From a virus: a stretch of DNA of 64,000 nt. The stretch is from the IMG/VR virus record IMGVR_UViG_3300044732_000643, positions 1-64,000 of that record. One strand, written 5' to 3'. Under the pieces are notes generated by a model. The model was not told the origin of the DNA. It did not search any database and saw only the letters and a program-made list of their open reading frames with translations. This document shows positions 7,819 to 64,000 of this stretch, one piece after another (position 1 is the first letter of the stretch; every line of letters begins with the position of its first letter). The translations under genes and the position numbers were made by a program.

Positions 7819-9435
7819 ATGGCAACTCCAGTTTTAAACAATGGTATATTCCTGCGTGACACGGCATACAATGCATCGTCCCACGTAGATTCATACCACC
7901 TCACAAACATGTTGAAAGACGCAGAACCTATGGATCTGGGTCCAGTAGACCTTTGGGCAATGGCTCAAAAAGTAGAAATGCCCCTTTATCAAATGTCATC
8001 ATTTGGAGGGAAGAATGTAATCATGGTAGACAATGCTCGTGGAGAGTACAAATGGCAGACTCCGGTCTCTATTGACCTACCTTACGTTGTTGAAGATATT
8101 GAGCCACTCAATGACTTCAAAGGCGTAGATGGTAACACATTCAAAATTAAACTTAACAGACGTGAGTTTGGTCATGGTGATATCCTTACCTATGACAAGT
8201 ACAACGGTGTTGAGATGTACGTAACACAGGATGACATCCTTCCTATTGGAGACGGATTCATCTATACCGTACAGTTGGTAAACAATGACAACTACAAGTA
8301 TCTTGACAACAAGTATCTTGCTAGCGGTACTAAGATCTTCCGTAAAGGTTCTGCAAGAGGTGAGTATGGTGAAAGATTCTCTGACATCATTACTAACGCT
8401 GGATTCCGTGAATTCTACAACTACGTAGGAGGAGCTGAAGCTCACGTTCACTACTCTATTTCTTCACGTGCAGACTTGATGATCAAAGGTGGTATGAATG
8501 CAGATGGTACAGTTCCTGTAACTGAGATCTGGAGAACATTCAACAAGAACATTGATCCAGCAATCACGTCTTTGGAAGACATGGTTAAAGTTATGGGTAA
8601 AGATTCTGTAAAGAAAGCTTTTGATAACGGAGACCTTTCAAGAACATTCTTGACAAACATGGAAGCAGCTCACCTTTCTAAAGTTGCATCTGACATTGAG
8701 ACTTACTTGATGTGGGGACAAGGAGGTAGAGTACGCCAAGATGGTCCGGATGATGTTAGATTGTCTGTGGGTCTTTGGAAACAGTTGGATAACTCTTTCA
8801 AGAGAATCTACAACAAGAATAACTTTAACCTTGATTTGTTCCGTGGAGAAATCTACAACTTCTTCAATGGTAAGGTTGAGTTCCAAGGTCCAGATCCTAA
8901 GCGTTCCCTAGTAGTTCAAACTGGTATGGGTGGTATGCGTATGGTGAATGATGCTATCCGTAGAGAAGCAATTGCATCTGGTCTTTTGATTCAGGCTGCT
9001 GATATCGGTGCAATCACTGGTAAAGGAATGGACTTGAACTTTGGATTTGCTTACACTTCTTATGTTATTCCATTCTTGGCTAACGTTAAGTTTGTGTTGA
9101 ACCCAGCATTTGACAACGTTCATACAAATGATATTGAGAACCCAATCATTGATGGTTTCCCATTGTCATCTTATTCATTCATTATCTTTGATATCACTGA
9201 TAATACAAATGATAACATCTACCTATTGAAGTTGTCTTGGGATAACCAATTGAAGTGGTGGTATCAAAATGGTACAATGGACTACATGGGCCGTACACAA
9301 GGGTTCCAGTCTTCTGGCCAATTCAATGGTTACCGCGTAATGATGTCTCAAACAATGCCAGCTATCTGGGTTAAGGATCCAACTAAAGTCCTTAAGATTG
9401 TTATGAGAAATCCAATTACTGGTGGATCATTCTAA
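7819..9435 (+). CDS. major capsid protein
   Basis: A 538-residue soluble protein without Cys clusters, transmembrane segments or low-complexity tails. It follows the portal and scaffold-like genes and is followed directly by the best intrinsic terminator of the window. A long, well-ordered protein in this position is expected to be the HK97-fold shell protein. Recurring features include aromatic and Gly-rich segments such as MGGMRMVND near residue 373 and a C-terminal MRNPITGGSF. The A-rich leader (AACAAACAAATACAAA) before the ATG suits high-level translation in Bacteroidetes. The assignment comes mainly from gene order, size and the flanking expression signals rather than a motif. Confidence 0.75.
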   Translation: MATPVLNNGIFLRDTAYNASSHVDSYHLTNMLKDAEPMDLGPVDLWAMAQKVEMPLYQMSSFGGKNVIMVDNARGEYKWQTPVSIDLPYVVEDIEPLNDFKGVDGNTFKIKLNRREFGHGDILTYDKYNGVEMYVTQDDILPIGDGFIYTVQLVNNDNYKYLDNKYLASGTKIFRKGSARGEYGERFSDIITNAGFREFYNYVGGAEAHVHYSISSRADLMIKGGMNADGTVPVTEIWRTFNKNIDPAITSLEDMVKVMGKDSVKKAFDNGDLSRTFLTNMEAAHLSKVASDIETYLMWGQGGRVRQDGPDDVRLSVGLWKQLDNSFKRIYNKNNFNLDLFRGEIYNFFNGKVEFQGPDPKRSLVVQTGMGGMRMVNDAIRREAIASGLLIQAADIGAITGKGMDLNFGFAYTSYVIPFLANVKFVLNPAFDNVHTNDIENPIIDGFPLSSYSFIIFDITDNTNDNIYLLKLSWDNQLKWWYQNGTMDYMGRTQGFQSSGQFNGYRVMMSQTMPAIWVKDPTKVLKIVMRNPITGGSF

Positions 9436-47508: not shown

Positions 47509-50500
47509 ATGGCTGAAAATCAAACACCAGAACCAGAAGATATTTCTGGAGGTGCTCAAATGATTAATCAAGGTAGCACTGATATTGATAATTTCTTACC
47601 ATTTGGAGGTAAAAATCCTATGGGTAATGTTACACCTGTATACAAATCTTCTCCTTTAAGACAGGCATATCCAGAAGTAAAGAGTCTTGATAACTCAACT
47701 TATCCTATTAAAGATAATATAACAGGATTAGCACCTTATACTAACAAACCTAATCAAACAGGTTTAATGTCAGCAAAAGAGAAAGCTAATGCTGACTTTG
47801 CAAGTATTAATAAAAGTTTACAGTCTTTTGAAGATAACAACGCATATGCTAAAATTCAAGCATATGATTCTTCTGCGGCAGGAGCACATAGAGCTAGATA
47901 TAAAGCCTATGGTCAAGAGACGTTTGATAGAATTGGATTTAACCCTGAGATAAATAATGAAGCACTGTTTAATGCTGGAACAACAGGACTTGATGACACA
48001 GCAAGATGGTTGACATCAGCTGCATGGCCGTTGTTCTCTAGAGGTTTTATTGCTAACCCTAAAAGTTATGGAGGTATATTTACCGGGGACTTTGGACAAG
48101 ACATTGAAGAAGCTAAAGCATATGAAGAATACAATGCTATAGGATACTCAAGTAAAGGTGGTATAGGTTCTTTCATCACAAATACACTTAACAGCTTTTC
48201 ATATACAGCCGGTATTATTTTAGAAGCAATTACTGAAGAAGCTATTATTGGTGGGGTGATTGGTGCCGCAGGTGGACCACAAGGAGCAGCTGGAGGTTCA
48301 TTTGTAGGAGGTGCAATAGGAGCTATTAAAGGACTTGCTGCTGTACCAAAAGCTTTATTTCAAATGGGTAGACAAGGGGCTACTCTTGCGGCTAATCTTA
48401 GAAGATTAGATGAGATGAGTGAAGCCAGAAGATTATATAATGAAGCTTCTAAAACAGTAGGTAACTTCTTTAACCCGTTTGATAATACTACCAATGCTGT
48501 ATCAGCAGCTTTAAACAATGCAAACAACATAACAAGACTAGCTAGAGCTACAAATACATTTGGTGGATTCTACAATGATGTGAAGAACATCAACATGGCG
48601 CTTTCTGAAGGAAGACTGGAAGGTGGGTTTGTAGAAAATAACACATACAAAGAAATGTATGATGCTCACTATGCTAAGTTTGGAGTAGCACCTGATGATC
48701 AAAAGCAAAGAGAGTTTAGGGATGTAGCTAGAAAAGCTGGTTCAGATGCTACTCTATATAACACTATGTTGATTAACTACTCTAACAAGTTGGTTATTCC
48801 TAATGTAATGAGAGGTGGTGTGTTCCGTGGATTGGCTGGTTATACAGATGATATTGCTGACTTTGGTACTCACAGTATTCTACTTAACCCTAAGAAAGGT
48901 TTTGAATTAGTTAAAAACAGTTTTGTCAATTCTCTCAAGGCTTTAAAAAGCCCAGGAACCTATGGCAAGTTTGCAATGAGCTATTTCAAAAGAAACGTTA
49001 CAGAGGGTGTTCAGGAAAATGCACAAGATGTTATATCGGAGTATCTACAGAAGTCTTATATAGCTGCCTATAATGACCCTTCTAAAGCTAACTTTGATTA
49101 CTCTAAGGCTATTCTTAAAACTGCAATAGGTAAACAGTTTAGTGCTCAAGGTTTTGAAACTTTTGCTTCTGGTTTTGTAATGGGTTCTCTAGCAGGACCT
49201 TTGAATGCTCTACCTAAATACATGCAGATTGGATACAATAAATACTACAAATATGCCGGTGAGTATGATAAGTATGTAGAGGGTAGAGGTCAGTCAGGAA
49301 AAGAACTTGTTGATACTCTTAATACTATTTACAAAGACCCTAAAGAGTTTTTTAAACATAGATACTTTAACTATGGTACTCAATCATTAGCGGCTAAGGT
49401 AGCTGATGATAAGACTAGTACTTCTGCTGAATATATGGATCAGAGAGATGCTGCTTTTATTACTCAAATGCAGACAGTCTTGAGTACAGGAACAATGAAA
49501 TATTTTGTAGATCAAATTAAGAGCTACCAACAGATGGCTCCGAAAGATGTAGAAGATGCACTTGGTCTTGCAGATGGAGAAGGTGTAAAAGCTATTCAAC
49601 GTGTAGATACTATTGTAGGTAGAGCCAAGAGAATGGAGAGACGCTACAATTATATTAATAAAAAACTAGGAAAGAACCCTATAGATCTTAATCTATTTGA
49701 CAAAGACTCTGATGACTATAACAAAGCTGCCTTATTACATAGTGCTTGGGAAGTGGGTGTTAATGCTCAATTATTCATGGGAGAGTCATTTGACAGAAAC
49801 CTAGAAAGAATTGCAGCTATCACAGATACTTTTGGACAGATTAGTCAGTTCTCCAATATACCTACTTCTGCAATCATGCCATTGCTTGACAAGCAACGTT
49901 TAGCAAATGAGTTTGAGTTGCTTCAGAGTGAAATTAAAGTACTTGAGGGTAGCGGAGATAAAGCATCTAAAGAACTAAACCAGAAGAAGCAACAACTTGA
50001 AGACCTTACTAATTTCCAAAAAGCCCTTAGCGCTGTACAGATTACTGTAATTGAAAAGCAAGGAATTCAAATGCGTAAGCAAGAGCTAATGGATAGTGGT
50101 CTACCTGAAGACCAAGCTCGGGTTGAGTCAGTAAAAAGATTTGAAGAAGAGTTTGATGTACTTGCAACTGATTTGATTAATGACCTAAAAGAAGTAACTA
50201 CACAGTACTTACTTAATCTATCTGGTTCCAATGTAGAGTTTACAAAACTCATGAATAAACTTCAGGAAGAAGGAGAGATAGATGGTATTGACTATGCAAT
50301 AACTCAGTTGATTGACTTGCATAAGTTAGATCATGAGAATCAAGCATTGGTAAAATACATCAATGTACTTCAAGATCCTGTAGAATTTGCTATACATGTC
50401 AACAGAAATCTTTCCTGGATGACTGAGATGTATAACAATAAGACTGAGTATTTCAAAGACATGGTGAATAACACCATAGAGCAGAAAGAATACAATGACC

Positions 50501-53500
50501 TATTACAAGCATTAGCGGATAAAGGCATCTATGTAGACCTTAATGAGTTTGCAGACTGGATAGAAGACAAAACAAACCTTCCCACTCAGTTTGAAGATGT
50601 TGTAAATAAGAGAGTAGTCAAACAAGGAAGTGTGATGTATCAGCAGTATGCTGAGTTATTCTTGAAGCTAGCAGATATCCAATCTAGAAAACCTGCCGGA
50701 AACAAAGCTACTGTAGATGAACAACTCAAAGAAGAGTTAGATAAAGCTGAAGAAGAGAAAGCTGGTAAACTAGCTAAAGCTAAGGTTGACTATGATGATA
50801 AGCTTAAAGCAGCTATTGGTTATACAGAAGCAGAATATGCGGCCCTTAAAAAGGATGAAGCTACACCTGAAGTATCACCTGAATTACAAGAAAGACTTGA
50901 TACTCTTACTAACTTAAAGGAACGCTTAGATGACAATGCTGTAAAAACAGATGAAGACATAGACAATCTGTTAGAAACTATAGCAACAGAACTTAAAGAT
51001 CTTGAGCTATTAGAAGTATACAACATAAACGTACTAGCTCTTTCCAAAGACAGAGCTGGAAAGAAAAAAGCCAAAGAATACAATAAAGAAACTCCACAAG
51101 AATTCTTTGATGAGAAGACTAAGTCTGGTGATGTACAAGAAAAGAACAATTTCTATACTGCATACTATGGACGTTATGTAGCAAGCACTCTATTAGCTAA
51201 AGAAATCAAAGCTATTCAGGATGAGATTGGTGAAACTACACCAGAAGGAGATACTACAGAAGATATAGTAATTAAAGAACAACCAGTTTATATAGAGTAT
51301 CAAGAGATTGTAGCTAAGATCAATGCAGACTATGAAAAGATCTTTGCAGAAATTCTTGAGAAGTACAAAGAGAAAGGTGCTAAAGCTACCTCTGTAACTG
51401 ATGCTAGAACTGGTCAACCAGCTAAGCCTGCTATTACAGTAGACACACCATGGGACAGTCTTCCTAAAGAACTACAAGATGAACTGCAACCTTTGTTTGA
51501 TACCTATGCTAAAAAGAGAAAGTATGCTGGTGAAGATGCAGCTACTAAAGCAAAAATCAGAGAGAATTGGTTAAAGACTCCTGAAGCTCAAGCTGTAGTA
51601 AAAGAATATGCTAATTCTCAAATAGGTGCTGAAGAAGAAGTAGAGTTTATTCTTGAAGAGGCTCCTACTCTTAGAATGAACAAGCGTACACCAGAAGAAC
51701 TTTCTGAGTCCACATTTGAACAACTTCAAATAGATGTAGATGCTCTTCAAATACTTGTAAATAAGAAAACAAGGACTGACCCTAAAACAAACAAAGAGGT
51801 AACACTTACAAAAAAAGAAGTAGCTTTTGCAATTGAAGACCTTAAAAACCTCAGAGGTTACTTAGCCTTTAGAAGATCCATTACTCCTATTAAACCAGAA
51901 GCTGAAAGAGTTGCTCAGGTTCTTAAGAGAAATGTACTTGACCGTCAGGGTGAAGTCACTGTTTATAGAGACAGTGCAGGTAATACAATAGGTAGAAGAT
52001 TAGAAGGTATTGACTATGAAGATGGTGAATATGCTGCAAGAGTAACTCAAGAGCTTTATGAAGTTCTTAAAGAGATTAATCCTGACTATGAAGAGTATCT
52101 TTATAATGGAATGAAGCCTATAGTAAATAAACAAACTGGTAGAATTCAATCTAGTCCAATTGATAGTTTGCTTACTGAACTGGATTTATATATTAAAGAT
52201 GGTGATGAAAAAACTCTAGAGCAAAAAGTTACTAAGCTTACGGACTTACTGCAGAACTACTATAAGCAAAAAACAATTGACAGATTTGGTAGTGAGAAGA
52301 AGTTGCAAATGCTTAGAGAAGTATTTATTCCTGTACAAAAAGGTAAGAAAAAAGCCACTGGTAAAGAGTTTACAACCGCCAATATCAAAGCTGCTATAAA
52401 TGAATTAGCTAATATAGGTAGTGCAATAGCAGGAACAACAGTAGATAAACTTGGACGTGATTTTTTCATGGGTGAGAAAATTACTAAACCTGCTAACATG
52501 TCTCCTGAAGCATTCAAGTCTTTATTAGATATCTTAAACCGCTTTGCTAATCAGATACGTGATAACAACATGGTTGTCATTTCTGAGAACATGCTTGTCT
52601 TTGATAAAGACTATGTGACTAAAGATGGTAAAAAACGTGGTATTGTAGGTGAGATGGACTTACTTGGATTCAAGGTTGATGGTAAGTTTATTATCATTGA
52701 CATGAAGACGGGTACTACAAATCGTTGGAAAAACTTTAATCCTAAAGCAGATACTGAGGTAGACTTACTTGCTAAAGGAACTGACAGTAAAGGCATCTCT
52801 ATCAGCAAAGATATTATTGACTGGAAGAAAACAGGATTTGATAGCTTTGAGGATGCTGATGAAAGAATGGATGGAATAGAGGGTATTACTATTAAAGAAA
52901 CTTACGGAGCTTCAAAAAGAGGTGTGGTTACTGGATTGGTTACAATTGATGGTCCTAATGAATCAAGAGATGTTGAAGTTGTTTTCAATACTGATAAGTA
53001 TACAGCTAAAGGTTCTCAAGATAGATATAGTAAGAGACCAGACTATAGTATTCAACAGACCTTCTATAGGAATGCCTTTAACAATATGTCAGGAGAGATG
53101 CCTGAAGGTATCTTCCTACTACCATTTGAAGTAGTACTAGATGGAGAGGATGGTTATATCAAGTCACTTAAGCTACCACCAATTGCTGATAAAGAAACAA
53201 TGCTTATTGAACTTGAGCCAGTAGAAGAAGTAAACAACTATCTACCACTTAAGACTATGGCACCTGCTGAAGGTGGTGAAGGTACAGCTAAAACAAAGAA
53301 AAGTAAAAAGAAAAAGACAACTACTGATGCTGCAGTAGACATAGAAGCTAGAAGGGCTGAAGGAACAAATGCTAGAGGTACCACTTATAAAGGAGAAACT
53401 ACTGAAAAAGATGAATTAAAAGTTACTAAATATTCTGAGTTTTCTCCTGATGGAAAAAGAATTACTAAAGGAGGTAGGATAATGACACCTGCTGAATTTA

Positions 53501-55461
53501 TAGAAGAATATGCTATAACTGACCAAGATCATTTAGAAAATCTTGAAGGAGCCACAGAAATAAGAGTATATGAAGTAAAAGTTGGTAAAAATGGAAAATC
53601 AGGAATAGACATAAAAGTCAGTTATCCAGATTTGGACCTAGAAATAACTGTTGGGGGACAAGAACTAGCCGCTTTAGGGGAGACTGAAGAGGAAGAACAA
53701 GAGCCTACTGATATTGTAGAGTACAAACCTAAGTCAGCATTGCTCAAAGACAATGTAGGTAAGCAAGTACTCTTTAATGGTATACTTGGTTCACTAGTTA
53801 CTTTCCCGCATCAAGGTGGTGACTTTGCTGTTGAAACAGAAAATAGTGTATACCCTATCAATGCTAATAGTGATCAGACTCTTAATGATGGAGGTGTATC
53901 AACTGTTAGAGTTAAGGGTAGTGATGTCTTTGGTGACCCAGTAGTAGCTGGTCAGATCTATGAAATTGAGTTTGTCAATGAAGGTAAAACAGAAGCCCTA
54001 ATAAACGGTGTCCCTTATAGAATTTCTAGAAACACTAAGGGTGGAGTTAAGTCTTTAACTTATAGAGTTAATGATAAAGCTCTTTCTGATATTTCTAAAC
54101 AAATTAATGATCTTGAAAAAGACCTTGCTAAGTTAGAAAAACAAGCAGACAAGCTTGCAAAAACAGATCCTGAAAACATTCAAATGACTCCATTGATAAC
54201 CAAAGCAATGGGTCTTAGAAATAAGATTGAGCTTCTTAATGGTAGAAGAGATGATCTGCAGGATACTAACAAAGATGTAAACACAAGAGATAAGAATCTT
54301 ATTCAAGCTTTACAAAGTATGTCAAGTACATTTGACAATTCTAAAGGTAAAGATGAGGAAGATGCTGATCTTGAAAAGATGAAACTACTAGAAGGTGAAG
54401 TACTACAAGCTATGAATGATATCCTTGATGAAGGATATCCTGAGAAGTTTGACATGCTTATCTCTGACCCATCATCTTTGAAGAGAGAAGACACAGATAG
54501 ATTCACAGCTTATGTTCAAAAGGCTAAAGAAGCATTTGAAACATTGAAAATACAATATGCAGCAGAATCAAAACTTACAACACCAATAGAAAAGGGTGTT
54601 GCTCAATTGGGAATTGTGTTAAATTATATTAAGAACCTAGAATACACTCAGAATGGAAAAGTCAAGAAGCAACAGCCAGCAGAAACCAAAGAGCTCCAAA
54701 GAGAGTTACAAGAAAATGAAGATGAATCTATTATTCAGGACGCTATCAGAAGACAACCAGGGGAAGTTCCTGGAGCAAAAGCTGCACCAGGAAGAAAAGC
54801 CAAAGATGTAGATGATCTTAAGAAAGCTGTAACACGTGGACTAACAGGTAAGACTACTCAAGAGTTAAATGACATACTAGATGAAGAGAATGAAGGCATC
54901 AGTATTGTAGACATAGAAGAAGCATTTGAGAATGCTACAGCTGAAACAATTGATGAGATCTATGCAGATTTCTTAACTCAAATTCAAGATGGACTAATAT
55001 CAATAGGAGATCCTAATATACTTACTGAACTACGTGATAAACGTAAGCTTGAATTAGGGGCCAAAATTGAGAAAAATACTATTGAAGTGGGTACTTATCT
55101 TATAGGTAAAAGAGGTAAATTTACAGAGATAGTAGAGGTAACTAACATCAATGAAGGAGAGTACACTATAGTACCTCTAGGTTCAGAAGAGGAAAAGGTA
55201 GTCTCATTGAAAACTTTACAAAAGAACTACAAAATGTACAGTGAAAACATGGATGAAGAGCAAGGAGATGTTGATATTACTGATGAAACTGAAGAGTCAG
55301 CACAAGAGACGCCAGAAACAATTGCTGATGTACTTAATGATGAGACTGTGATAAATAATGCCATTGGGGAAACTAGTAAAATGACTAGAGAAGAACGTAG
55401 AGCTCAGATGGCAGAGGAAAATAAAAAATGTAAATTAAAAGGTTCTCAAGATGGCTTGTAA
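47509..55461 (+). CDS. giant cargo protein with PD-(D/E)XK nuclease domain
   Basis: A 2650-residue protein. Residues about 218-284 are a long Gly-rich hydrophobic region that could enter a membrane. The centre (about 780-1400) is coiled-coil rich. Around 1650-1840 is a PD-(D/E)XK nuclease: an AGTTVDKLGRDFF element, then Glu1715 and Asp1717 (GEMDLLGF), then Asp1731 and Lys1733 (IIIDMKTG), and a later Gln-rich IQQTFYRNAF resembling the Q-x-x-x-Y helix. Another coiled coil lies near 2190-2250. The end overlaps the start of the polymerase gene by 11 bases, so both are likely made and packaged together. The nuclease may act on host or phage DNA at entry; the target is unknown. Confidence 0.6.
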   Translation: MAENQTPEPEDISGGAQMINQGSTDIDNFLPFGGKNPMGNVTPVYKSSPLRQAYPEVKSLDNSTYPIKDNITGLAPYTNKPNQTGLMSAKEKANADFASINKSLQSFEDNNAYAKIQAYDSSAAGAHRARYKAYGQETFDRIGFNPEINNEALFNAGTTGLDDTARWLTSAAWPLFSRGFIANPKSYGGIFTGDFGQDIEEAKAYEEYNAIGYSSKGGIGSFITNTLNSFSYTAGIILEAITEEAIIGGVIGAAGGPQGAAGGSFVGGAIGAIKGLAAVPKALFQMGRQGATLAANLRRLDEMSEARRLYNEASKTVGNFFNPFDNTTNAVSAALNNANNITRLARATNTFGGFYNDVKNINMALSEGRLEGGFVENNTYKEMYDAHYAKFGVAPDDQKQREFRDVARKAGSDATLYNTMLINYSNKLVIPNVMRGGVFRGLAGYTDDIADFGTHSILLNPKKGFELVKNSFVNSLKALKSPGTYGKFAMSYFKRNVTEGVQENAQDVISEYLQKSYIAAYNDPSKANFDYSKAILKTAIGKQFSAQGFETFASGFVMGSLAGPLNALPKYMQIGYNKYYKYAGEYDKYVEGRGQSGKELVDTLNTIYKDPKEFFKHRYFNYGTQSLAAKVADDKTSTSAEYMDQRDAAFITQMQTVLSTGTMKYFVDQIKSYQQMAPKDVEDALGLADGEGVKAIQRVDTIVGRAKRMERRYNYINKKLGKNPIDLNLFDKDSDDYNKAALLHSAWEVGVNAQLFMGESFDRNLERIAAITDTFGQISQFSNIPTSAIMPLLDKQRLANEFELLQSEIKVLEGSGDKASKELNQKKQQLEDLTNFQKALSAVQITVIEKQGIQMRKQELMDSGLPEDQARVESVKRFEEEFDVLATDLINDLKEVTTQYLLNLSGSNVEFTKLMNKLQEEGEIDGIDYAITQLIDLHKLDHENQALVKYINVLQDPVEFAIHVNRNLSWMTEMYNNKTEYFKDMVNNTIEQKEYNDLLQALADKGIYVDLNEFADWIEDKTNLPTQFEDVVNKRVVKQGSVMYQQYAELFLKLADIQSRKPAGNKATVDEQLKEELDKAEEEKAGKLAKAKVDYDDKLKAAIGYTEAEYAALKKDEATPEVSPELQERLDTLTNLKERLDDNAVKTDEDIDNLLETIATELKDLELLEVYNINVLALSKDRAGKKKAKEYNKETPQEFFDEKTKSGDVQEKNNFYTAYYGRYVASTLLAKEIKAIQDEIGETTPEGDTTEDIVIKEQPVYIEYQEIVAKINADYEKIFAEILEKYKEKGAKATSVTDARTGQPAKPAITVDTPWDSLPKELQDELQPLFDTYAKKRKYAGEDAATKAKIRENWLKTPEAQAVVKEYANSQIGAEEEVEFILEEAPTLRMNKRTPEELSESTFEQLQIDVDALQILVNKKTRTDPKTNKEVTLTKKEVAFAIEDLKNLRGYLAFRRSITPIKPEAERVAQVLKRNVLDRQGEVTVYRDSAGNTIGRRLEGIDYEDGEYAARVTQELYEVLKEINPDYEEYLYNGMKPIVNKQTGRIQSSPIDSLLTELDLYIKDGDEKTLEQKVTKLTDLLQNYYKQKTIDRFGSEKKLQMLREVFIPVQKGKKKATGKEFTTANIKAAINELANIGSAIAGTTVDKLGRDFFMGEKITKPANMSPEAFKSLLDILNRFANQIRDNNMVVISENMLVFDKDYVTKDGKKRGIVGEMDLLGFKVDGKFIIIDMKTGTTNRWKNFNPKADTEVDLLAKGTDSKGISISKDIIDWKKTGFDSFEDADERMDGIEGITIKETYGASKRGVVTGLVTIDGPNESRDVEVVFNTDKYTAKGSQDRYSKRPDYSIQQTFYRNAFNNMSGEMPEGIFLLPFEVVLDGEDGYIKSLKLPPIADKETMLIELEPVEEVNNYLPLKTMAPAEGGEGTAKTKKSKKKKTTTDAAVDIEARRAEGTNARGTTYKGETTEKDELKVTKYSEFSPDGKRITKGGRIMTPAEFIEEYAITDQDHLENLEGATEIRVYEVKVGKNGKSGIDIKVSYPDLDLEITVGGQELAALGETEEEEQEPTDIVEYKPKSALLKDNVGKQVLFNGILGSLVTFPHQGGDFAVETENSVYPINANSDQTLNDGGVSTVRVKGSDVFGDPVVAGQIYEIEFVNEGKTEALINGVPYRISRNTKGGVKSLTYRVNDKALSDISKQINDLEKDLAKLEKQADKLAKTDPENIQMTPLITKAMGLRNKIELLNGRRDDLQDTNKDVNTRDKNLIQALQSMSSTFDNSKGKDEEDADLEKMKLLEGEVLQAMNDILDEGYPEKFDMLISDPSSLKREDTDRFTAYVQKAKEAFETLKIQYAAESKLTTPIEKGVAQLGIVLNYIKNLEYTQNGKVKKQQPAETKELQRELQENEDESIIQDAIRRQPGEVPGAKAAPGRKAKDVDDLKKAVTRGLTGKTTQELNDILDEENEGISIVDIEEAFENATAETIDEIYADFLTQIQDGLISIGDPNILTELRDKRKLELGAKIEKNTIEVGTYLIGKRGKFTEIVEVTNINEGEYTIVPLGSEEEKVVSLKTLQKNYKMYSENMDEEQGDVDITDETEESAQETPETIADVLNDETVINNAIGETSKMTREERRAQMAEENKKCKLKGSQDGL

Positions 55462-58400
55462 AATAACTGAAAAGCAGGTACTCAATATATATACTGATAT
55501 CTATGAGGAATTAAAAGTAGGAATGGACAACCCGTCTGTCCCTGCTTTTGACATATCATCATACATGAAAGATCTTTATGATGATATGGTAGACACTTCT
55601 GACCCAGATTCAGTACAGAAAACAATACTTACTATACAAGCTGTTCCTGATATCTATCTACAGGTAGCTTTAAGAGAGGATGTTAAAAGTTATATTCTTA
55701 AGACTCGTAAATTAAAGGAGTCCCATATGGATATCATGCAGATGTCTAAGGATTTTGAAGATACCAATACAGTATCCAAATTTCTTACAACAGCTAAGGT
55801 ATCTAAGAAATATGTAGAGGCTGCCATCAAGGTTTCCAATATGGCTAAAGGTCGTATGAAGGTTATTAATGACATTGCCATGATCATTAATGAAGTATTG
55901 ATGTGGAGTGCCGCAACTGGTAGAAGAAAACCTATATCTGCATGGACACTTACTGGTCAAGAGTTTATTCCTATCAATCCAGAAGGTGCTACAGATGAAG
56001 AGAGAAATGCTATAATTGATGAGTCTCAAGTGATGGCTTATAAAGTTATCCGTGAGATTGTTGCTGCTGTACAAAGCGGTACATCAAAAGGTGATGAAGT
56101 ACTTTACCGTGGTATTCCTATAATGATTCAAGCTATTCCAAGTGAGGATATTGACATCCAATACTTTGATGACTCTACTCAAAAGAACTATGCTGAGAAT
56201 AAGATTATTAATGGTGTTCCCTTTAGAAGATTACATGCTGAGGGTGTTAATGCTGTAATGTCTGATACTGAAGGTAATATACTTTACTTTGATGAAGAGG
56301 GTAATATTACTGACCAAGAGTCAGGAGGAAGACCAGTACTTCAAGGATTTAGAAAAGTTACTGTAGATAAGAAAACAGGAAAGCTTCTGTTAACTAACAA
56401 AGATAATTATGCCACAGTACTTGTGTCTCCTAAAGAGATTGCTGACAGGGCCAAAGCAGACGCTGAAGCTAAAGGTATTGAATTTACTCAATCTCAGTAT
56501 GACTATATAGTAAAAAGGCAAGAAGAAAGAATAGAAAAGGAAGTGAATGATCTCTATCTTCTTAGAGAAAAAACTCTAAGCCGTACAGGTGAACCTATAC
56601 TACTACCTATTACAGGAGGAACCTTTGGTATTGTTGAGGCTAAATTTATAGATATGTCAGAGACTTCAATTAAGTCAGAAGACATAGGTGAAATGCATAC
56701 AGATAATATCAAGGGTGAAGGTGCGGGTTTGACTTACATTACTTTAAAGAATGGGAATCCTTCTGACCGTGTATATCTGCAAAGAGCAAACATGCCTGAA
56801 GATCTTATTGATAAGATTGTGAATGTACTTTTTACAGATGCCAAGCTTAAAGGAGGTAAGACATTAAGTGCAAAACAAAGAAGAGACTTTGCTAAGATAT
56901 TCTTAGGACCAAATCCTACATTAGGAGCGGGATATAAGGTCACTCCAGTCTATATAAATCTTCCTATAATTGATGGTATAGAAACTTTAGAGATTAGTAT
57001 AAACGGTATGTATCTAGATCTTGAAGAAGAAGGTTCAGATGAAATACTAAGAGAAGCTCTTAAGGAACAGATTAAAGGAACAAGAGATACATTCAGTGCA
57101 CCTTTAAATTACTCTTCAGACTATGTAAATAAAGATTTCATAGACTATGAGATTAATGGAGATAAGATAACAACAAAAGAAGTTGACTACTTTACTTTTA
57201 TTAAACCCTTTATTAAAATTCTATACACTCAAGAGTCTGCTCCATATATACAAGCCCGCAATGCTTATTTGAGTTATGCTATTCCAACTGATGTTCTTTC
57301 TGATATAGAGATAGAAGAGAAGGAAGAAGAAGCACCGGCAGTGAAAGGTAAGATTACAAAGACTGCTGAAAAGGATACAACAGAAGAGGAAGATGTAACG
57401 GAAAACATTGGAAAGATTACTTTCTCAGAGCACAAGACTGCAGGATATGCTCCAGTAAAGCAAGCTGTAATTGCTATGGCAGACTTAGTGCTAGCATTCA
57501 ATCCTGCAAATGTTACAGGTGGTTCTAATACAGTTACACAGAATGCAGTAGATAGCACTGGTAAACCATACTTTCCTCAAACCTTTAGTAAACGTGGTGG
57601 GAAGCTTGAATTAACACCAGCTGCTATTAATAATCTAGTAATTCAAATTAATGCATCCCCAGGCGGAGTGCTTACTATTACAGGTGGAGATATTACTGCA
57701 CTAAAAGGTTATACTCAAGATGTACTAGATAATTTTATGTACAATACTCTTAAAGCTGTTGTAGAATCTAGTAATCTTAAATTAGAAATTACAAATGTTA
57801 TTACCACAGGTCAGACAGGTATTGAAGAAGCTGCTACAAAAGCTGCTGCTAGATTAGGTCTTGAGACTAAAGTAGTAGCACCAAAAGATTGGTGGACTAA
57901 AGAAATGTCTAAGCCTGTAAATAAGTTTGCTAAAGGTAAAAAGGCTGCCCCAGATAGACGTTCAAAGGAAACTAAGTTCAAGGCTAGATTTAAGACTAAA
58001 GCAACTCCATCAAAAACTGCAGCTAAAACGGTTGCTAAAACAAAAGAAGTTCTTTCAGAGGAAGACAGAAAAATATTAAGTGAGAGTGCTATTAATTTCA
58101 GTGGCTTTAATAGATCAATGAGTGTAGCATCTTTCTTTGATAAATACTTTGTTACTGAAGCGGATAAAAAGAGAGCTGACAACTGGTGGAGTAATTCCCC
58201 TTTGTCTACAGCAAAAGATAAAGAGGGTAACCTGCTTATTCCTGTTACTGTAATTACTGAGATACTAAACTCTGATGCATTTGCAACATGGTCACGTGCA
58301 GGTATTACATTAAATCAAGCTGATGGTGGTACATCTGTTGACCTTTATCACGAAGCATGGCATGCATTCTCTCAGTTGTACTTGAGTATAGATGAGAAGA

Positions 58401-61400
58401 CGGCACTATATGAAGCAATGAGAAAGTCTCCTAAGTGGGCTAATGCAGAATTCATAGATATAGAAGAAGCAATAGCGGAAGACTTCAGAGACTTCATGCT
58501 TGGTAAGACTAAGCCTAAAGGTATCATTGGAAGAATCTTTGATAGAATTGCAAGAGCCATAAGATTACTATTTGGTAAGCTTACAAAGAGAGACCTCACT
58601 AGACCAAGAGACATAGCTGAAGTAAAAGGATACTTTGATGCATTGTACAAAGGTGACATCAACCATCTTACTCCGGCTATAGAAAATGTAATGCCTGAGT
58701 TCAATGTACTCAACAGATCTAAAGCTATTGAAGTTATAAAATCTGAAAGTAAAAACTACAGTCCATTTACCATTGATGACTCTAAGAGAGCCGTAGATGC
58801 AATGGATAGTATCATGGCGGATGTTTTCTTAGACTATAACGCGTATTTTAAAACAACAGCTGGTGTTTCAAGAATTTTGAATGATGGTTTAAATAGAGAA
58901 AAAACTTATGCAAAAATACTTGAAAGGCTAATACTTAAAAGAGACATAGCTCAAAGAGAACTCAAAGAACTAGCTTCTGAGAATAGACAAAGTGATACTC
59001 CAGATCTAGATACTCAAGCTGTACTTTCTGATAATGTCTTGCTCTTAAGCAAAATGGTAGACAATTTTGGAGACATAGATATTTCTCTAAAAGGTAAAGA
59101 AAAGAAAGGTCTTGTTGCTTACCATATTAATAACACAAGATTTAATGTATTAAAAGATACCTATGTAGAAGTAGATGAAGATGAAGCTGCTATAGATTCT
59201 GTAGGTCAGATTATCCCATCTACAGAAGGTAATACTAAATCATCTAAAGAACTAGCTTCAGAAGATACCCTAATGCTTATCTCAAGTATCTTCAAAGTAG
59301 ACAAAAATAAAGACGGTACCTTTACTAGAGTACAGGATAAACTAGGTTTTGATATCCTTGAGTCTAAAGATATCATGTGGAATAAGCTAGCAAGAACACT
59401 TGCCGGTTCACTCACTGATGAGGAAATCTATGTTAAGCTGATGGAATATTCAAAAAACTATCCAGAGTTTAACCAACTGATGGAGATGTTACATAATCCT
59501 CTATCAAGCGAATCCTATAAAAGTACAGCTGAGTTCAATACTACAACAAGATTTTGGCAAGATTTTAAAAAGCCAAGAATCCCATATGTACAATTGAACA
59601 TTACTAAAAGACAAGTAGCTTCATTAGAGGAAGGTATCCCTGATAAAACAGAGTTCTCATCTAGTATAGTAAATGCAAACTTTGATGTTTATGCTGTATT
59701 CAAAGTATGGTCTGCTAACTTCCAACTAGCTGACCCTTCTCCTAATAATTTTATCACCAAGGATAAGTTATCAAACATATTAGACATTGATTTGATTATT
59801 TCTGAATTTAGTAAAGGTGATAAATTTGATTTTAAAAGATCATTTGAGTTTCTTGAAGCTCTTGGAATTACCTTAGATAGAACAAGTGCTGAGATCAGCG
59901 CTATGATGGAAAAGTCTGGTTTTGCAAAAGTGTATGGAGTAGATTATATCTTCAGCTTGCTCAAGATGATCAACAAAGCTGCTAAGTCAGATGATCTTAA
60001 AAAAGTAGCAGCTGCTAAAGAGTTCAGCCGTAATCCTATTAAGTACTTGATGGATGGTTTACCTGAAGACTTAAGAGAGAGTGCTGAGAATGCAGAGGAT
60101 GTAAGAACAAGACTAAGAGAATTAGCTGAGATAAACATTAAGTTCTCTGATAACTATGCTAACTTTAGTGTACTTAGTCCTGAGAGAAACCGTGTTTGGG
60201 AACACTTCTTAGACAGTACACTTACCCGTACAATGGGTGCCCTAAACAAGGCAAAAAGCTTTAAGTATCTGATTGATGAAGATGAGCAAGAGTTTGATGT
60301 AGATGGTGACTTCAGACACATGCGTTGGTTGAGAGATTCAAACAATCCACATATCAAGCATAGTGTTAATATGAACTCTATCTTCTATATGGATCCAATG
60401 AATAGCAAGTTTGGAGAGAGAAGAAGAGTAAGTGATGAAGGATTTAATGAGCTAGAAGTAATCAACGTAGCGGGTACTCAGGTATTAGAAGAAGGTAGCT
60501 TAACTCCAGAAGATGGTGTATCTACAAGTTCTGCTGATGCAACTACTAAGTTCCTACAAGAAATGAATACTATGTTGTTACGTGGTGTTCAGGAGTTCAT
60601 GCGTCACGCATCTAAGTCTATGGCTCAAGGTATCAGAGCTAGAAAAGTAGACACTGCTAACTTTGATAATCCAGGAAAAGAAACAGACTATCTTTATGTA
60701 GACATTGCTGATTTCCGTCCTGCCCGTAGAGGTGAGGGTGAACTAGAAGCATTTGATATTATCAAAGGTTATGTAGCTGGTGAGCTTGAAAGAATCCAGA
60801 GATTTAAAGCTAATCTCAAAGATGATAGTATCACAGATACAGAATTGCAGATGAAGAACTGGGCTGGTTACAATAGAAAAGTCAGAAAGAAAGACGGGAC
60901 TATTGTAATGGCAGGTGAAGTATTTACAGCATTTGATGATGTTCTTACTGAAGACACTAAAGAAATGCTTTATGATATAGATGGAGATTTACTTGAGGCT
61001 TTAGATGAAAATGATGATCTGTATCAAGCTTTAAAAAATGATGTAGATAACTATTTTGACAAGCAAACTAAAATCAATCTAGATGTTTTAAGTAAAGCTA
61101 GATATGTTGATCCAGCTTTGACTGAGGTTGCTACACAAGAAGGTTTGACAAGAAAGCAAGTTGATGAAATCTTAATTAAAGCCTATACATACAACTCTTG
61201 GATTCATAACTATGAGTCAGTGATTCTTACTTACGGAGACTTAGCTCAGTATAACCATGAGAAAGAAGAGTTCCATAAGCGTAATGCAGGTATGACAGCT
61301 CCAGGAAGAGGTTTTAGAGCTGACCAAAGAGCAAGAGACTATATCAACAGCTCACTCTTCCCTAGACTTTATGCTCAGAAGAAAGGGTATAACATTAGAA

Positions 61401-64000
61401 ACTATGATGGTAGAATACACACAGCTATCATTAAAGAGAAAACGCTTAACTCAATCATGTATGATGAGTACAAAGAAACTCTTTATCAAGATATCTTAAC
61501 CCGTCTTAAGGATAACAAGACTATTAAGAACAAAAAAGACTATGCTAAGAAGCTTTCAGAAACTGAAGCTAAGGCATACTTAGGCATGGAAGAAGGTGAT
61601 GGTCAGGGACATGTTACTCTAGAGTCTTACCGCATGCTTAAGACTTTGGAGGGTAACTGGACTGATGAACAAGAAGAGCTATATAAAAGAATTGTAAACG
61701 GTGATAAGCTATCAGTAGAAGATATCATTGAATACTTCCCACCTTATAAGTTACAGTACTTTGGAAACATAGACACAAAAGGTTTGTCTGTTACATCATT
61801 CCATAAGTTCTCATTAGCCCCACTTATTCCTTCTGTAACAGGATCAGCAAAACTATCTGCGCTACATGACAAGATGATGAAGGACAATGTAGACTATGTA
61901 GTCTTTCAGTCAGGTTCTAAAGTAGGACACATTGCACCAGACGGAAAGGGTGATACTATCTTTGATGAAAATGGTGATCTAATTAAAGACTCTAAGTTTA
62001 CAGTAAATAAAGTATTCTCTGAGTTCTTGAAGAATCAGACAGAACTTAACAGTACATATAAAGAGAAGTCTATCTTCTCTACTCAGTTACGTAAGTTGAT
62101 CCTTGAGGGTCTTTATGAGAGAGGTGTAATACAGTCTACTGATGAGACTCAGATTACTAGTGATAAAGTAAAGCGCTACATTGATAATGTCTTTGAGTAC
62201 ACTAATATTCTTAAAGTAGAATTACTAGAGAAGATTGGTTATGATGAGAAGACCGTAGATGGTAAACTTGTCTATACACCTAGAGATAAAAAGAGCACAG
62301 AAAAACTAGCTGAACTTATTCGCCAGGAACTTGAGAGAGATGACACATTGGGTGACCACTTGATTGAAGGCTTTATAGATGTAACTGAAGATGGTTCATT
62401 GAGAAATGACTTATCACTACACCCTGAAGCACCGAAGATTGAGAAGTTGTTACTATCTGTAATCAACAAGAAAATCATCAAGCAGAAAGTAAAAGGTGAG
62501 CCATTGGTTCAGGTATCTGCTGCTATGTATGAAGGAGTGTTTGGAAGTCCTATTGCTGATCTTACTAATGCTACAGAAGCACAGAAGAAAAAATACAAAG
62601 GGTCTAACTTCCTGCCAACATACCATAGAAAAATTATTGACCTTGATGCATTATACAAAAATGCAAGTAAGGAAAGTCTAAAGGCAGCTTTAAAAACTAA
62701 AGAAAGGATACAAGAGGAACAGTCAGCTTATTGGACTCCTACCCATCAACAAGCTCTTAGAGATGAGATACAGTATCTAAAAGATGTCATTGCAGGTAGA
62801 AAACCAAAAGTTACTACAACAACAGACGGTACTACAGCAGCTATGAAAGTTATGGTTGCCTTACAAGGTGACTTTAACTATCTGTTGAACCTAGAGCATA
62901 ATGATGGAGAAGAGATTGGTACTATTGACCGTCTCAATGAAATGATTAAAGAAGACTCTTGGTTAGATAAAGGTACTAACAGACAAGCAGTAACTATGGC
63001 TGCTGTGAGAATTCCAGTACAGGGTCTTAACTCTATGGAATTTATGGAGGTGTATCACTTCCTTCCACCAGAAGCCGGGAATATTATTATACCACCATCT
63101 GAGATTGTTGCTAAATCAGGAGCTGACTTTGATATTGATAAGTTGACTACGTTTATGCCCAACATATCTGAGGACGGTACTGTAAAAGGTAGACTACTTA
63201 AAAAAGGTAAAACTAAAGAAGAGAGCATTCAGATTCTAAAAGATGCCGTAGCTGAAGCTAGAAAGAATAAAGAGTCTCACACTGAGATTATCAAAGCTCA
63301 GAAAGCTGCATTAGAGAATGAACTCATAGAAGACATCAAAAACATTCTTGAGCTTCCACAGAACTACCCTTCATTGATTAGACCAAACGGTACTTATATT
63401 CTAAAGCCAATTGCAGATGAGCTTGCTCAATATGTGATGGAGTATGACCCTTATAAGAACATGTCTTCTGATTCACCAAACTACAAAAACGTAGATGAGA
63501 ATGGGGTAAAGACAGTTAAAAAGGTCATTAGTCCTACGCGTGTTCTAGAATCTGGATACAACATATACAAGCATGAGTCTAATGAGATTGGTAAGAAAAC
63601 CCTTGGTCTTGGAGCTATAGAAAACACATTTAATGTAATCATGAATTCATTAGATGCTAAGATGCCGGCTACATACCTGCAGGGTAAAAGTAAGACACCA
63701 AGAAAGATGGAGTTACTCCTTAGACACCACACTACAATTAATAAAGATGGTGATGAAGTAATATCAATAGCTAGTAGATATGATGTAGATAATGTACACA
63801 AAGTAGCTGACTTGTTCTCCCAGTCTATCAATGGATGGGTGGATGTTGAGAAAGATGCATGGATCTTCTTTATCCAAGGAAACTATGAGCTTGCTTCAAC
63901 AACGCTATACCTAATTAAAGCTGGGGTACCTGTAAAAGAAGCTATCTTCTTTGTTTCACAACCACTAGTTAGAGAGTATGTAAAAGAACAAAGACAAGGT
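55451..64000 (+). CDS. giant virion RNA polymerase with GQTG and HEAWH domains (partial, 3' end outside)
   Basis: An open frame of at least 2850 codons runs to the window edge. Its C-terminal part has two-barrel RNA polymerase signatures: Lys2157 in FQSGSKVG within a SLAPLIPS ... SALHDKMM region, then RIPVQGLNSM and the catalytic ADFDIDK (Asp2559, 2561 and 2563). This is the crAss-like (phi14:2 gp66-type) virion polymerase, related to eukaryotic RNA-directed polymerases. Upstream, ITTGQTGIEEAA (GQTG at 787-790) resembles the SGGQTG loop of SLOG or molybdenum-carrier-like Rossmann domains. HEAWH (967-971), with later IEEAIAEDF, resembles a zincin. No stop was found in this frame at the points I translated. 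The start overlaps the previous gene by 11 bases. Confidence 0.8.
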   Translation, partial: MACKITEKQVLNIYTDIYEELKVGMDNPSVPAFDISSYMKDLYDDMVDTSDPDSVQKTILTIQAVPDIYLQVALREDVKSYILKTRKLKESHMDIMQMSKDFEDTNTVSKFLTTAKVSKKYVEAAIKVSNMAKGRMKVINDIAMIINEVLMWSAATGRRKPISAWTLTGQEFIPINPEGATDEERNAIIDESQVMAYKVIREIVAAVQSGTSKGDEVLYRGIPIMIQAIPSEDIDIQYFDDSTQKNYAENKIINGVPFRRLHAEGVNAVMSDTEGNILYFDEEGNITDQESGGRPVLQGFRKVTVDKKTGKLLLTNKDNYATVLVSPKEIADRAKADAEAKGIEFTQSQYDYIVKRQEERIEKEVNDLYLLREKTLSRTGEPILLPITGGTFGIVEAKFIDMSETSIKSEDIGEMHTDNIKGEGAGLTYITLKNGNPSDRVYLQRANMPEDLIDKIVNVLFTDAKLKGGKTLSAKQRRDFAKIFLGPNPTLGAGYKVTPVYINLPIIDGIETLEISINGMYLDLEEEGSDEILREALKEQIKGTRDTFSAPLNYSSDYVNKDFIDYEINGDKITTKEVDYFTFIKPFIKILYTQESAPYIQARNAYLSYAIPTDVLSDIEIEEKEEEAPAVKGKITKTAEKDTTEEEDVTENIGKITFSEHKTAGYAPVKQAVIAMADLVLAFNPANVTGGSNTVTQNAVDSTGKPYFPQTFSKRGGKLELTPAAINNLVIQINASPGGVLTITGGDITALKGYTQDVLDNFMYNTLKAVVESSNLKLEITNVITTGQTGIEEAATKAAARLGLETKVVAPKDWWTKEMSKPVNKFAKGKKAAPDRRSKETKFKARFKTKATPSKTAAKTVAKTKEVLSEEDRKILSESAINFSGFNRSMSVASFFDKYFVTEADKKRADNWWSNSPLSTAKDKEGNLLIPVTVITEILNSDAFATWSRAGITLNQADGGTSVDLYHEAWHAFSQLYLSIDEKTALYEAMRKSPKWANAEFIDIEEAIAEDFRDFMLGKTKPKGIIGRIFDRIARAIRLLFGKLTKRDLTRPRDIAEVKGYFDALYKGDINHLTPAIENVMPEFNVLNRSKAIEVIKSESKNYSPFTIDDSKRAVDAMDSIMADVFLDYNAYFKTTAGVSRILNDGLNREKTYAKILERLILKRDIAQRELKELASENRQSDTPDLDTQAVLSDNVLLLSKMVDNFGDIDISLKGKEKKGLVAYHINNTRFNVLKDTYVEVDEDEAAIDSVGQIIPSTEGNTKSSKELASEDTLMLISSIFKVDKNKDGTFTRVQDKLGFDILESKDIMWNKLARTLAGSLTDEEIYVKLMEYSKNYPEFNQLMEMLHNPLSSESYKSTAEFNTTTRFWQDFKKPRIPYVQLNITKRQVASLEEGIPDKTEFSSSIVNANFDVYAVFKVWSANFQLADPSPNNFITKDKLSNILDIDLIISEFSKGDKFDFKRSFEFLEALGITLDRTSAEISAMMEKSGFAKVYGVDYIFSLLKMINKAAKSDDLKKVAAAKEFSRNPIKYLMDGLPEDLRESAENAEDVRTRLRELAEINIKFSDNYANFSVLSPERNRVWEHFLDSTLTRTMGALNKAKSFKYLIDEDEQEFDVDGDFRHMRWLRDSNNPHIKHSVNMNSIFYMDPMNSKFGERRRVSDEGFNELEVINVAGTQVLEEGSLTPEDGVSTSSADATTKFLQEMNTMLLRGVQEFMRHASKSMAQGIRARKVDTANFDNPGKETDYLYVDIADFRPARRGEGELEAFDIIKGYVAGELERIQRFKANLKDDSITDTELQMKNWAGYNRKVRKKDGTIVMAGEVFTAFDDVLTEDTKEMLYDIDGDLLEALDENDDLYQALKNDVDNYFDKQTKINLDVLSKARYVDPALTEVATQEGLTRKQVDEILIKAYTYNSWIHNYESVILTYGDLAQYNHEKEEFHKRNAGMTAPGRGFRADQRARDYINSSLFPRLYAQKKGYNIRNYDGRIHTAIIKEKTLNSIMYDEYKETLYQDILTRLKDNKTIKNKKDYAKKLSETEAKAYLGMEEGDGQGHVTLESYRMLKTLEGNWTDEQEELYKRIVNGDKLSVEDIIEYFPPYKLQYFGNIDTKGLSVTSFHKFSLAPLIPSVTGSAKLSALHDKMMKDNVDYVVFQSGSKVGHIAPDGKGDTIFDENGDLIKDSKFTVNKVFSEFLKNQTELNSTYKEKSIFSTQLRKLILEGLYERGVIQSTDETQITSDKVKRYIDNVFEYTNILKVELLEKIGYDEKTVDGKLVYTPRDKKSTEKLAELIRQELERDDTLGDHLIEGFIDVTEDGSLRNDLSLHPEAPKIEKLLLSVINKKIIKQKVKGEPLVQVSAAMYEGVFGSPIADLTNATEAQKKKYKGSNFLPTYHRKIIDLDALYKNASKESLKAALKTKERIQEEQSAYWTPTHQQALRDEIQYLKDVIAGRKPKVTTTTDGTTAAMKVMVALQGDFNYLLNLEHNDGEEIGTIDRLNEMIKEDSWLDKGTNRQAVTMAAVRIPVQGLNSMEFMEVYHFLPPEAGNIIIPPSEIVAKSGADFDIDKLTTFMPNISEDGTVKGRLLKKGKTKEESIQILKDAVAEARKNKESHTEIIKAQKAALENELIEDIKNILELPQNYPSLIRPNGTYILKPIADELAQYVMEYDPYKNMSSDSPNYKNVDENGVKTVKKVISPTRVLESGYNIYKHESNEIGKKTLGLGAIENTFNVIMNSLDAKMPATYLQGKSKTPRKMELLLRHHTTINKDGDEVISIASRYDVDNVHKVADLFSQSINGWVDVEKDAWIFFIQGNYELASTTLYLIKAGVPVKEAIFFVSQPLVREYVKEQRQG

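Follow-up and report, generated by a model that had tools for sequence, protein, structure and literature searches.

A divergent two-barrel RNA polymerase of the phi14:2 gp66 type in a giant phage protein with an apparent C-terminal exchange site among its relatives

The plus strand of the virus record IMGVR_UViG_3300044732_000643 (IMG/VR; 70,725 bases) carries a giant open reading frame (ORF) with a virion-type RNA polymerase, which begins at position 55451 of the window studied here (bases 1-64000 of the record, 64,000 nucleotides) and stays open through the window's end (55451..64000). The end of the gene, which the initial annotation had sought past the window, is a stop at record position 66358 in the remainder of the record, giving a protein of 3635 amino acids (aa). 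The frame is under purifying selection, with a ratio of nonsynonymous to synonymous substitution rates (dN/dS) of 0.157 against the related locus L004 over 3597 codons, and of 0.10-0.19 in each segment tested. The four peptides from which a two-barrel polymerase had been proposed all lie in this frame (SALHDKMM at 61856-61879, FQSGSKVG at 61904-61927, RIPVQGLNSM at 63008-63037 and ADFDIDK at 63122-63142). The product had also been called a polyprotein with about 2100 residues of other domains ahead of the enzyme. It is indeed a single giant open frame, and as to processing it offers a protease-like domain only. Other sequence does precede the polymerase, but its length was slightly overstated, since the model that starts at residue 1688 aligns to gp66 of phage phi14:2 from gp66 residue 615, which leaves roughly 1690 residues in front.

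The polymerase part as modelled covers residues 1688-2880 (60512..64000, plus strand like every feature of the ORF, ending at record position 64090 beyond the window). A comparison with the gp66 family and a structure prediction, both proposed in the initial annotation, lead to the same protein, the phi14:2 polymerase (PDB 6vr4). When the whole protein was compared with PDB chains by phmmer, 6vr4 was the one match at E <=1 (E 1.2e-21), and a profile of 35 relatives finds it at E 7e-30, with two further matches at E 0.45. The phmmer match falls into three segments that follow the same order in both proteins (2040-2285, 2510-2593 and 2783-2850 in this one); the last is weak alone. These correspond to a first, beta-like barrel region (residues 2040-2290, 61568..62320; aligned to 6vr4 966-1204), a second, beta-prime-like barrel region (residues 2510-2600, 62978..63250; 6vr4 1326-1409) and a third block common to gp66 (residues 2783-2850, 63797..64000; 6vr4 1611-1678). 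K2119 and K2157 of the first barrel region each face a lysine of 6vr4 in the alignment, and the DFDID of the protein (63125..63139) stands opposite the DFDID of gp66 at gp66 residue 1361. An AlphaFold model of residues 1688-2880, made with 35 sequences, has a mean predicted local distance difference test score (pLDDT) of 80.3 and a predicted template modelling score (pTM) of 0.76. Foldseek returns 6vr4 as its sole match below 0.001 (E 1.1e-26), and VIA-align places it first with Z 19.7 over 912 aligned residues at a root mean square deviation (rmsd) of 4.2, followed by maize RDR2 (7.3), QDE-1 (6.6), AR9 (6.3), P74 gp62 (6.0), phiKZ (5.8) and cellular beta-prime subunits (Z 5.5 and lower). Similarly, a tblastn search of 50,697 phage records matched 21, comprising 18 named 'uncultured phage cr...', two of phi14:2 and one 'Bacteriophage sp.'; the three cr records inspected (cr108_1, cr128_1 and cr273_1) are classed in Crassvirales.

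Several results weigh against this identification. Identity to gp66 is about 23-37% within the aligned pieces, and a search of the whole protein against Pfam and PHROGs returned no RNA polymerase family, with two PHROGs of unknown function as the only matches. The VIA-align rows other than 6vr4 all have Z below 8, a range that the tool describes as common for unrelated folds, and they include short unrelated rows such as a cyanophage ejectosome protein (Z 6.2 over 57 residues) and a clostridial toxin (Z 5.5 over 46 residues). Model confidence falls under pLDDT 50 at the DxDxD loop (model residues 871-876). Moreover, no polymerase match was found in positions 45000-125312 of phage Lbo-JY46 or 20000-118000 of phage crAssE-Sib. 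The Pfam and PHROGs blank was discounted in the end because 6vr4 is matched directly. As Z below 8 is common among unrelated folds, only the fold match to 6vr4 is treated as decisive, and the low confidence of the loop means that the placing of three Asp on one loop rests on the 6vr4 alignment and not on model geometry. Homology to the crAss-like virion RNA polymerase, in sequence and in fold, extends across both barrel regions of one chain. Alignment and model thus support the reading of this chain as a two-barrel RNA polymerase of the phi14:2 gp66 type, a divergent addition to a known family.

Conservation was followed in 81 loci, made up of the window's copy and the best 80 of 88 IMG/VR relatives. 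Several of these are identical, and the 78 rows of the core alignment reduce to 68 distinct sequences. None of the peptide patterns used for finding the relatives includes the DxDxD motif. A DxDxD string by itself carries no weight, because a protein with this much Asp should contain about 1.5 by chance, and this one has three. D2559, D2561 and D2563 are kept in 81/81 loci (as DFDID in 52, DFDVD in 22 and DYDVD in 7), while the other two strings (at residues 1616 and 1842) were rejected as the metal site, being kept in just 3/76 and 7/78 loci. The proposed DxDxD metal site therefore withstands comparison with decoys from within the same protein. K2119 and K2157, the two lysines expected in the first barrel of this polymerase type, are invariant in the 79 loci that cover them. 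Two relatives stand apart in other respects. In L047 (L047:4280-14649), a start and a stop that overlap by four bases divide the giant ORF between the barrel regions; the split may reflect two genuine subunits or a single-base error. A scan of genome contigs yielded a single relative, L090, with a polymerase 54% identical. Its contig, 3.5 kb long, was binned under the name Bifidobacterium breve and is probably viral sequence that strayed into that bin.

The protease-like part of the chain, residues 900-1130 (58148..58840), is a putative zincin-like domain as judged by its conserved residues. Its HExxH, present as HEAWH at 58349-58363, is invariant in the 72 of 81 loci whose sequence reaches it, and the acidic residues E1005, E1006 and E1010 downstream, which are candidate metal ligands, are kept in 71/72. 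No Pfam zincin family stands among the matches listed for the region and no PDB sequence matches it. A profile of the region from the SLOG-like domain (described below) to the zincin-like domain likewise found nothing among PDB sequences, and the rows of the fold search barely cover the zincin-like part. Corresponding regions, each with HExxH, are found in three other crAss-like phages. That of cr108_1 shares a chain with the first barrel, that of cr273_1 lies inside a single annotated gene that also bears the polymerase matches, and cr128_1 has it as a separate gene. The zincin-like part thus appears to be a wider component of the crAss transcription block, sometimes fused. In phi14:2, HExxH occurs in neither gp66 nor gp67 and once in gp65.

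These observations bear on a possible, if doubtful, alternative in which the chain is a true polyprotein that the zincin-like domain cuts, so that only the freed polymerase piece works. The invariance of HExxH fits such processing, as does the occurrence of the region as a separate gene in cr128_1 and joined to the first barrel in cr108_1. Passages of one survey describe N4-type virion polymerases as 'always' or 'almost always' fused to metallopeptidase domains (PMC5512222), and the tape-measure polymerase chain of phage P23-45 likewise carries a metallopeptidase according to parts of its description (PMC10770324). However, no cleavage site was identified, no systematic search for one having been made, and the target of the domain could equally be a host or ejection protein. 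Every segment tested is also under purifying selection, although this is not decisive.

Ahead of the zincin-like domain lies a first variable site, occupied here by residues 654-815 (57410..57895), which match phrog_10774 (unknown function) at E 5.7e-5. The Pfam cpYpsA match of the window's copy has E 0.035 and fails the curated score of PF12694 (14.3 bits vs a cut-off of 26.2); the best such match among 35 relatives is 4.3e-4, and all are under the cut-off. A local profile ties the region to homologous C-terminal domains of four relatives (L021, L061, L062 and L064) that do clear the Pfam cpYpsA cut-off. The region is modelled confidently by AlphaFold (pLDDT mostly 84-97), and its best VIA-align row is 3imk (Z 8.5 at rmsd 2.6 over 110 residues, against 6.0 for the next row), which we take to be a member of the cpYpsA family PF12694. 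Foldseek's own top rows are dehydrogenases. Because the window's copy lies below the Pfam cut-off, the domain is named SLOG-like (cpYpsA-like) only. It is present at this site in 22/81 loci, 67 of the 81 including the 5' end. On a core tree built by FastTree, which raised long-branch warnings and from which L034, L047 and L060 were excluded, it needs just 2 changes, so the domain is mostly inherited at this site and not swapped.

The giant ORF is itself the middle one of three giant genes, of 2650, 3635 and more than 1456 aa, in an order that resembles gp67 (1797 aa), gp66 (2180) and gp65 (1421) of phi14:2, all of which are annotated there from tandem mass spectrometry (MS/MS) proteomics. The upstream gene (47509..55461, plus strand, 2650 aa) is the positional counterpart of gp67, to which it is tied weakly and indirectly through a crAssE-Sib protein that matches gp67. 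The downstream gene begins at record position 66358 and is open to the record's end; its start resembles gp65 with 31% identity over 102 residues (E 2e-7), and with 28% over 86 residues (E 8e-4) in the reverse search. The polymerase gene therefore sits between a gp67-like and a gp65-like giant gene, the gp67 link being the weak one. Large ORFs also flank the giant ORF in 8/8 relatives whose neighbours were listed (of 80), the upstream one being cut at the locus edge. This setting is relevant to whether the enzyme could instead be made and act in the infected cell without being packaged, as a non-virion type. Packaging is not readable from sequence, and P23-45 encodes two two-barrel polymerases, one of the virion type and one not, as parts of PMC10770324 describe. 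However, adjacency to counterparts of gp67 and gp65, within a gp65-67 set annotated by MS/MS, makes an unpackaged enzyme improbable, no search for a second two-barrel polymerase having been made in what is an incomplete record.

A second variable site, near the C-terminus, is seen in the relatives. Insertions of at least 100 residues near reference positions about 3430-3500 occur in 14 of 35 aligned full-length proteins, and local profiles were run over all 81 loci. Pfam names an AlkB-type 2OG-Fe(II) oxygenase, NADAR, the cpYpsA SLOG domain, an AAA_33 kinase, an AAA_30 helicase and DUF7831 at this site. Among 27 tails submitted to Pfam, chosen mostly for length, the curated cut-off is passed by a domain in 14 (4/7, 7/10 and 3/10) and by nothing in 13. 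Local hidden Markov models were built from the Pfam-found copies, so that their matches on the seed loci are circular. They count AlkB in 10 loci, C-terminal SLOG in 5 (and fragments in 2 more), NADAR in 3, DUF7831 in 3, and the kinase and helicase in 2 each. At least one such domain is present, in frame inside the ORF, in 17/81 loci. The AlkB copies of L025, L042, L045 and L064 are under the Pfam cut-off and that of L066 was not submitted to Pfam; the H-x-D and distal H, a motif with a known role in AlkB proteins, are present in 8/8 seed copies. The window's own protein has none of these domains at the C-terminal site. DUF7831, of unknown function, shares the site with AlkB and the kinase (L005:13817-15304, L025:13724-16225 and L038:4442-6769), a location that hints at a related early role.

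Exchange at this site was followed in 11 contig pairs and 15 domain pairs, which were hand-chosen and not random, and which are independent of the tree. L021 and L046 are 98-99% identical on both flanks, and one has a complete SLOG domain where the other retains just a fragment (L046, which is counted as empty). L016 has a kinase where L025 has AlkB and DUF7831, between flanks 97% identical on each side, and L070/L036 (flanks 96% and 93%) and L043/L073 (79% and 80%) differ at the C-terminal site too. In L008/L009 the difference lies past the ORF, and in L016/L017 no cassette is seen, L017 ending first. Matching DNA on the right resumes inside the ORF in 10/10 loci examined, a count that stands apart from L042 (whose ORF runs off the contig), L036 and L073. 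Some domains are far more alike than the polymerase cores that carry them, as for the kinase of L016/L068 (domain 97% vs core 65%) and AlkB of L038/L054 (97% vs 67%) and L025/L064 (88% vs 44%), and others are far less alike (AlkB of L042/L045, 38% vs 96%; SLOG of L062/L064, 55% vs 97%). Other pairs fit plain descent, with domain/core values of 90/93 for the helicase of L036/L070, 54/53 for NADAR of L043/L061, 45/43 for DUF7831 of L005/L038, and 48/44, 46/44 and 70/73 for SLOG of L021/L061, L021/L062 and L061/L064. On the core tree AlkB needs approximately 7 changes. That the domains reflect faulty assembly or read-through into separate genes, as metagenomic contigs and the split ORF of L047 could suggest, is highly improbable given that they stand in frame within the ORF, that matching DNA resumes ahead of the ORF's end and that the same site is used in many contigs. 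By these comparisons, the C-terminal domains appear to move independently of the polymerase and to be exchanged in frame. No fusion of this polymerase with accessory domains was met in the literature titles and abstract openings surveyed, although figures might show some. The polymerase is already known, and what looks new lies elsewhere in the chain, in the zincin-like and SLOG-like domains and, among relatives, the C-terminal exchange site.

Elsewhere in the window, the terminase and portal match many crAss-like records. For both the portal (3695-6427) and the capsid (7819-9435), the nearest counterparts are those of Lbo-JY46, a phage of the cyanobacterium Leptolyngbya (31.6% and 29.2%, respectively), with those of crAssE-Sib (Epsilon crAss-like) second. 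The capsid matches just 10 records, the best being Lbo-JY46, whose record does not assign Crassvirales. From these similarities, the phage group may be a separate, early lineage. The authors of crAssE-Sib give a polymerase by HHpred at E 3e-3 (in passages of PMC11054128), and parts of PMC7886860 describe the Epsilon group as being without the transcription block. As neither Lbo-JY46 nor crAssE-Sib showed the polymerase in the stretches covered, a loss or gain of it close to this point is possible. Among the neighbouring giant genes, the downstream one (L001:11358-15725, record 66358-70725) carries a HEFSH motif of its own (residue 567), where its sequence resembles a giant protein of Lbo-JY46 (28% over 102 residues). 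The upstream protein has a weak PDDEXK match at residues 1677-1739 (E 0.023), and PDDEXK domains are mentioned for some large transcription proteins of crAss-like phages in passages of PMC7886860.

The closest known system is gp66 of phi14:2, which shares homology over both barrels and the next block, the DxDxD motif, the two lysines and the gp67/gp65 order. In contrast, it is shorter (2180 vs 3635 aa), lacks HExxH and has no Pfam domain at E 0.001, and it is the chain described here that has zincin-like and SLOG-like domains in front. The transcription blocks of cr108_1, cr128_1 and cr273_1 are alike in having homologous polymerase and zincin-like regions in very large or fused proteins. None of the four polymerase polypeptides scanned (those of phi14:2 and cr128_1 and two of cr108_1) has a Pfam domain at E 0.001. 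N4-type virion RNA polymerases and polyvalent proteins, as portrayed in parts of PMC5512222, are giant packaged chains joining a polymerase, a metallopeptidase and variable effectors, which the present chain would resemble. However, the N4 enzyme is T7-like and not two-barrel. The terms 'nadar', 'slog' and 'alkb' are absent from the main text of PMC5512222. P23-45 gp96 is a giant virion chain that combines a two-barrel polymerase and a metallopeptidase, but its polymerase is joined to a long-tailed phage's tape measure and is without a clamp (passages of PMC10770324). It is not among the fold rows listed, where its non-virion cousin P74 gp62 appears at Z 6.0.

Taking together the homology, fold match, conserved site, gene order and purifying selection, this protein is very probably a virion-packaged two-barrel polymerase that would be ejected and transcribe the first genes, with a zincin-like domain, and that would double as a carrier of exchangeable enzymes. 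The chain would most likely be packed in the virion along with the two neighbouring giant proteins, enter the host before or alongside the DNA and then transcribe the earliest phage genes. D2559, D2561 and D2563 would hold the catalytic metal, facing K2119 and K2157 of the first barrel, and the zincin-like domain would probably trim or free ejected proteins. The initial annotation had cited packaging and early transcription as a proposal for crAss-like phages. Passages of PMC7886860 go further and report both as experimentally validated for phi14:2, and parts of PMC10172136 report RNA polymerase-associated proteins in phiCrAss001 virions. On the strength of these two reports, packaging, ejection and early transcription are the only part of the scheme with close experimental precedent.

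The accessory domains would act immediately on entry, on nucleic acids or ADP-ribose signals, from two carrier sites, one ahead of the zincin, which holds the SLOG-like domain in this phage, and one near the C-terminus, which holds the swapped set in relatives. A more specific reading, for which we see about equal reason to believe and to doubt, is that the polymerase serves as a delivery chassis with two sockets. Swapped AlkB, NADAR, SLOG, polynucleotide-kinase-like and helicase domains would then enter covalently attached to it and shield or clean the entering genome ahead of any phage gene expression. So read, the phage described here has the SLOG-like domain in its first socket and an empty second one. 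NADARs reverse guanine ADP-ribosylation, as stated in parts of PMC11125620, and passages of PMC9503650 treat the NADAR and SLOG roles as predictions, with phage examples that are typically standalone.

The exchange sites matter more than the polymerase, which only extends a family already characterised by its structure and by virion proteomics. Protective enzymes brought in by a protein that enters at the very start of infection could not be replaced by phage genes expressed later, and the findings suggest that the accessory enzymes may be renewed more quickly than the polymerase bearing them, as in an arms race. Each resident domain would then be a possible clue to how the host treats DNA that enters it, with NADAR indicating ADP-ribosylation, AlkB alkylation, the kinase-like domain end damage and SLOG nucleotide signals. 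Moreover, a metallopeptidase-like domain is common to three kinds of virion polymerase chain (the type described here, N4 and P23-45), which would point to a shared step of ejection or release.

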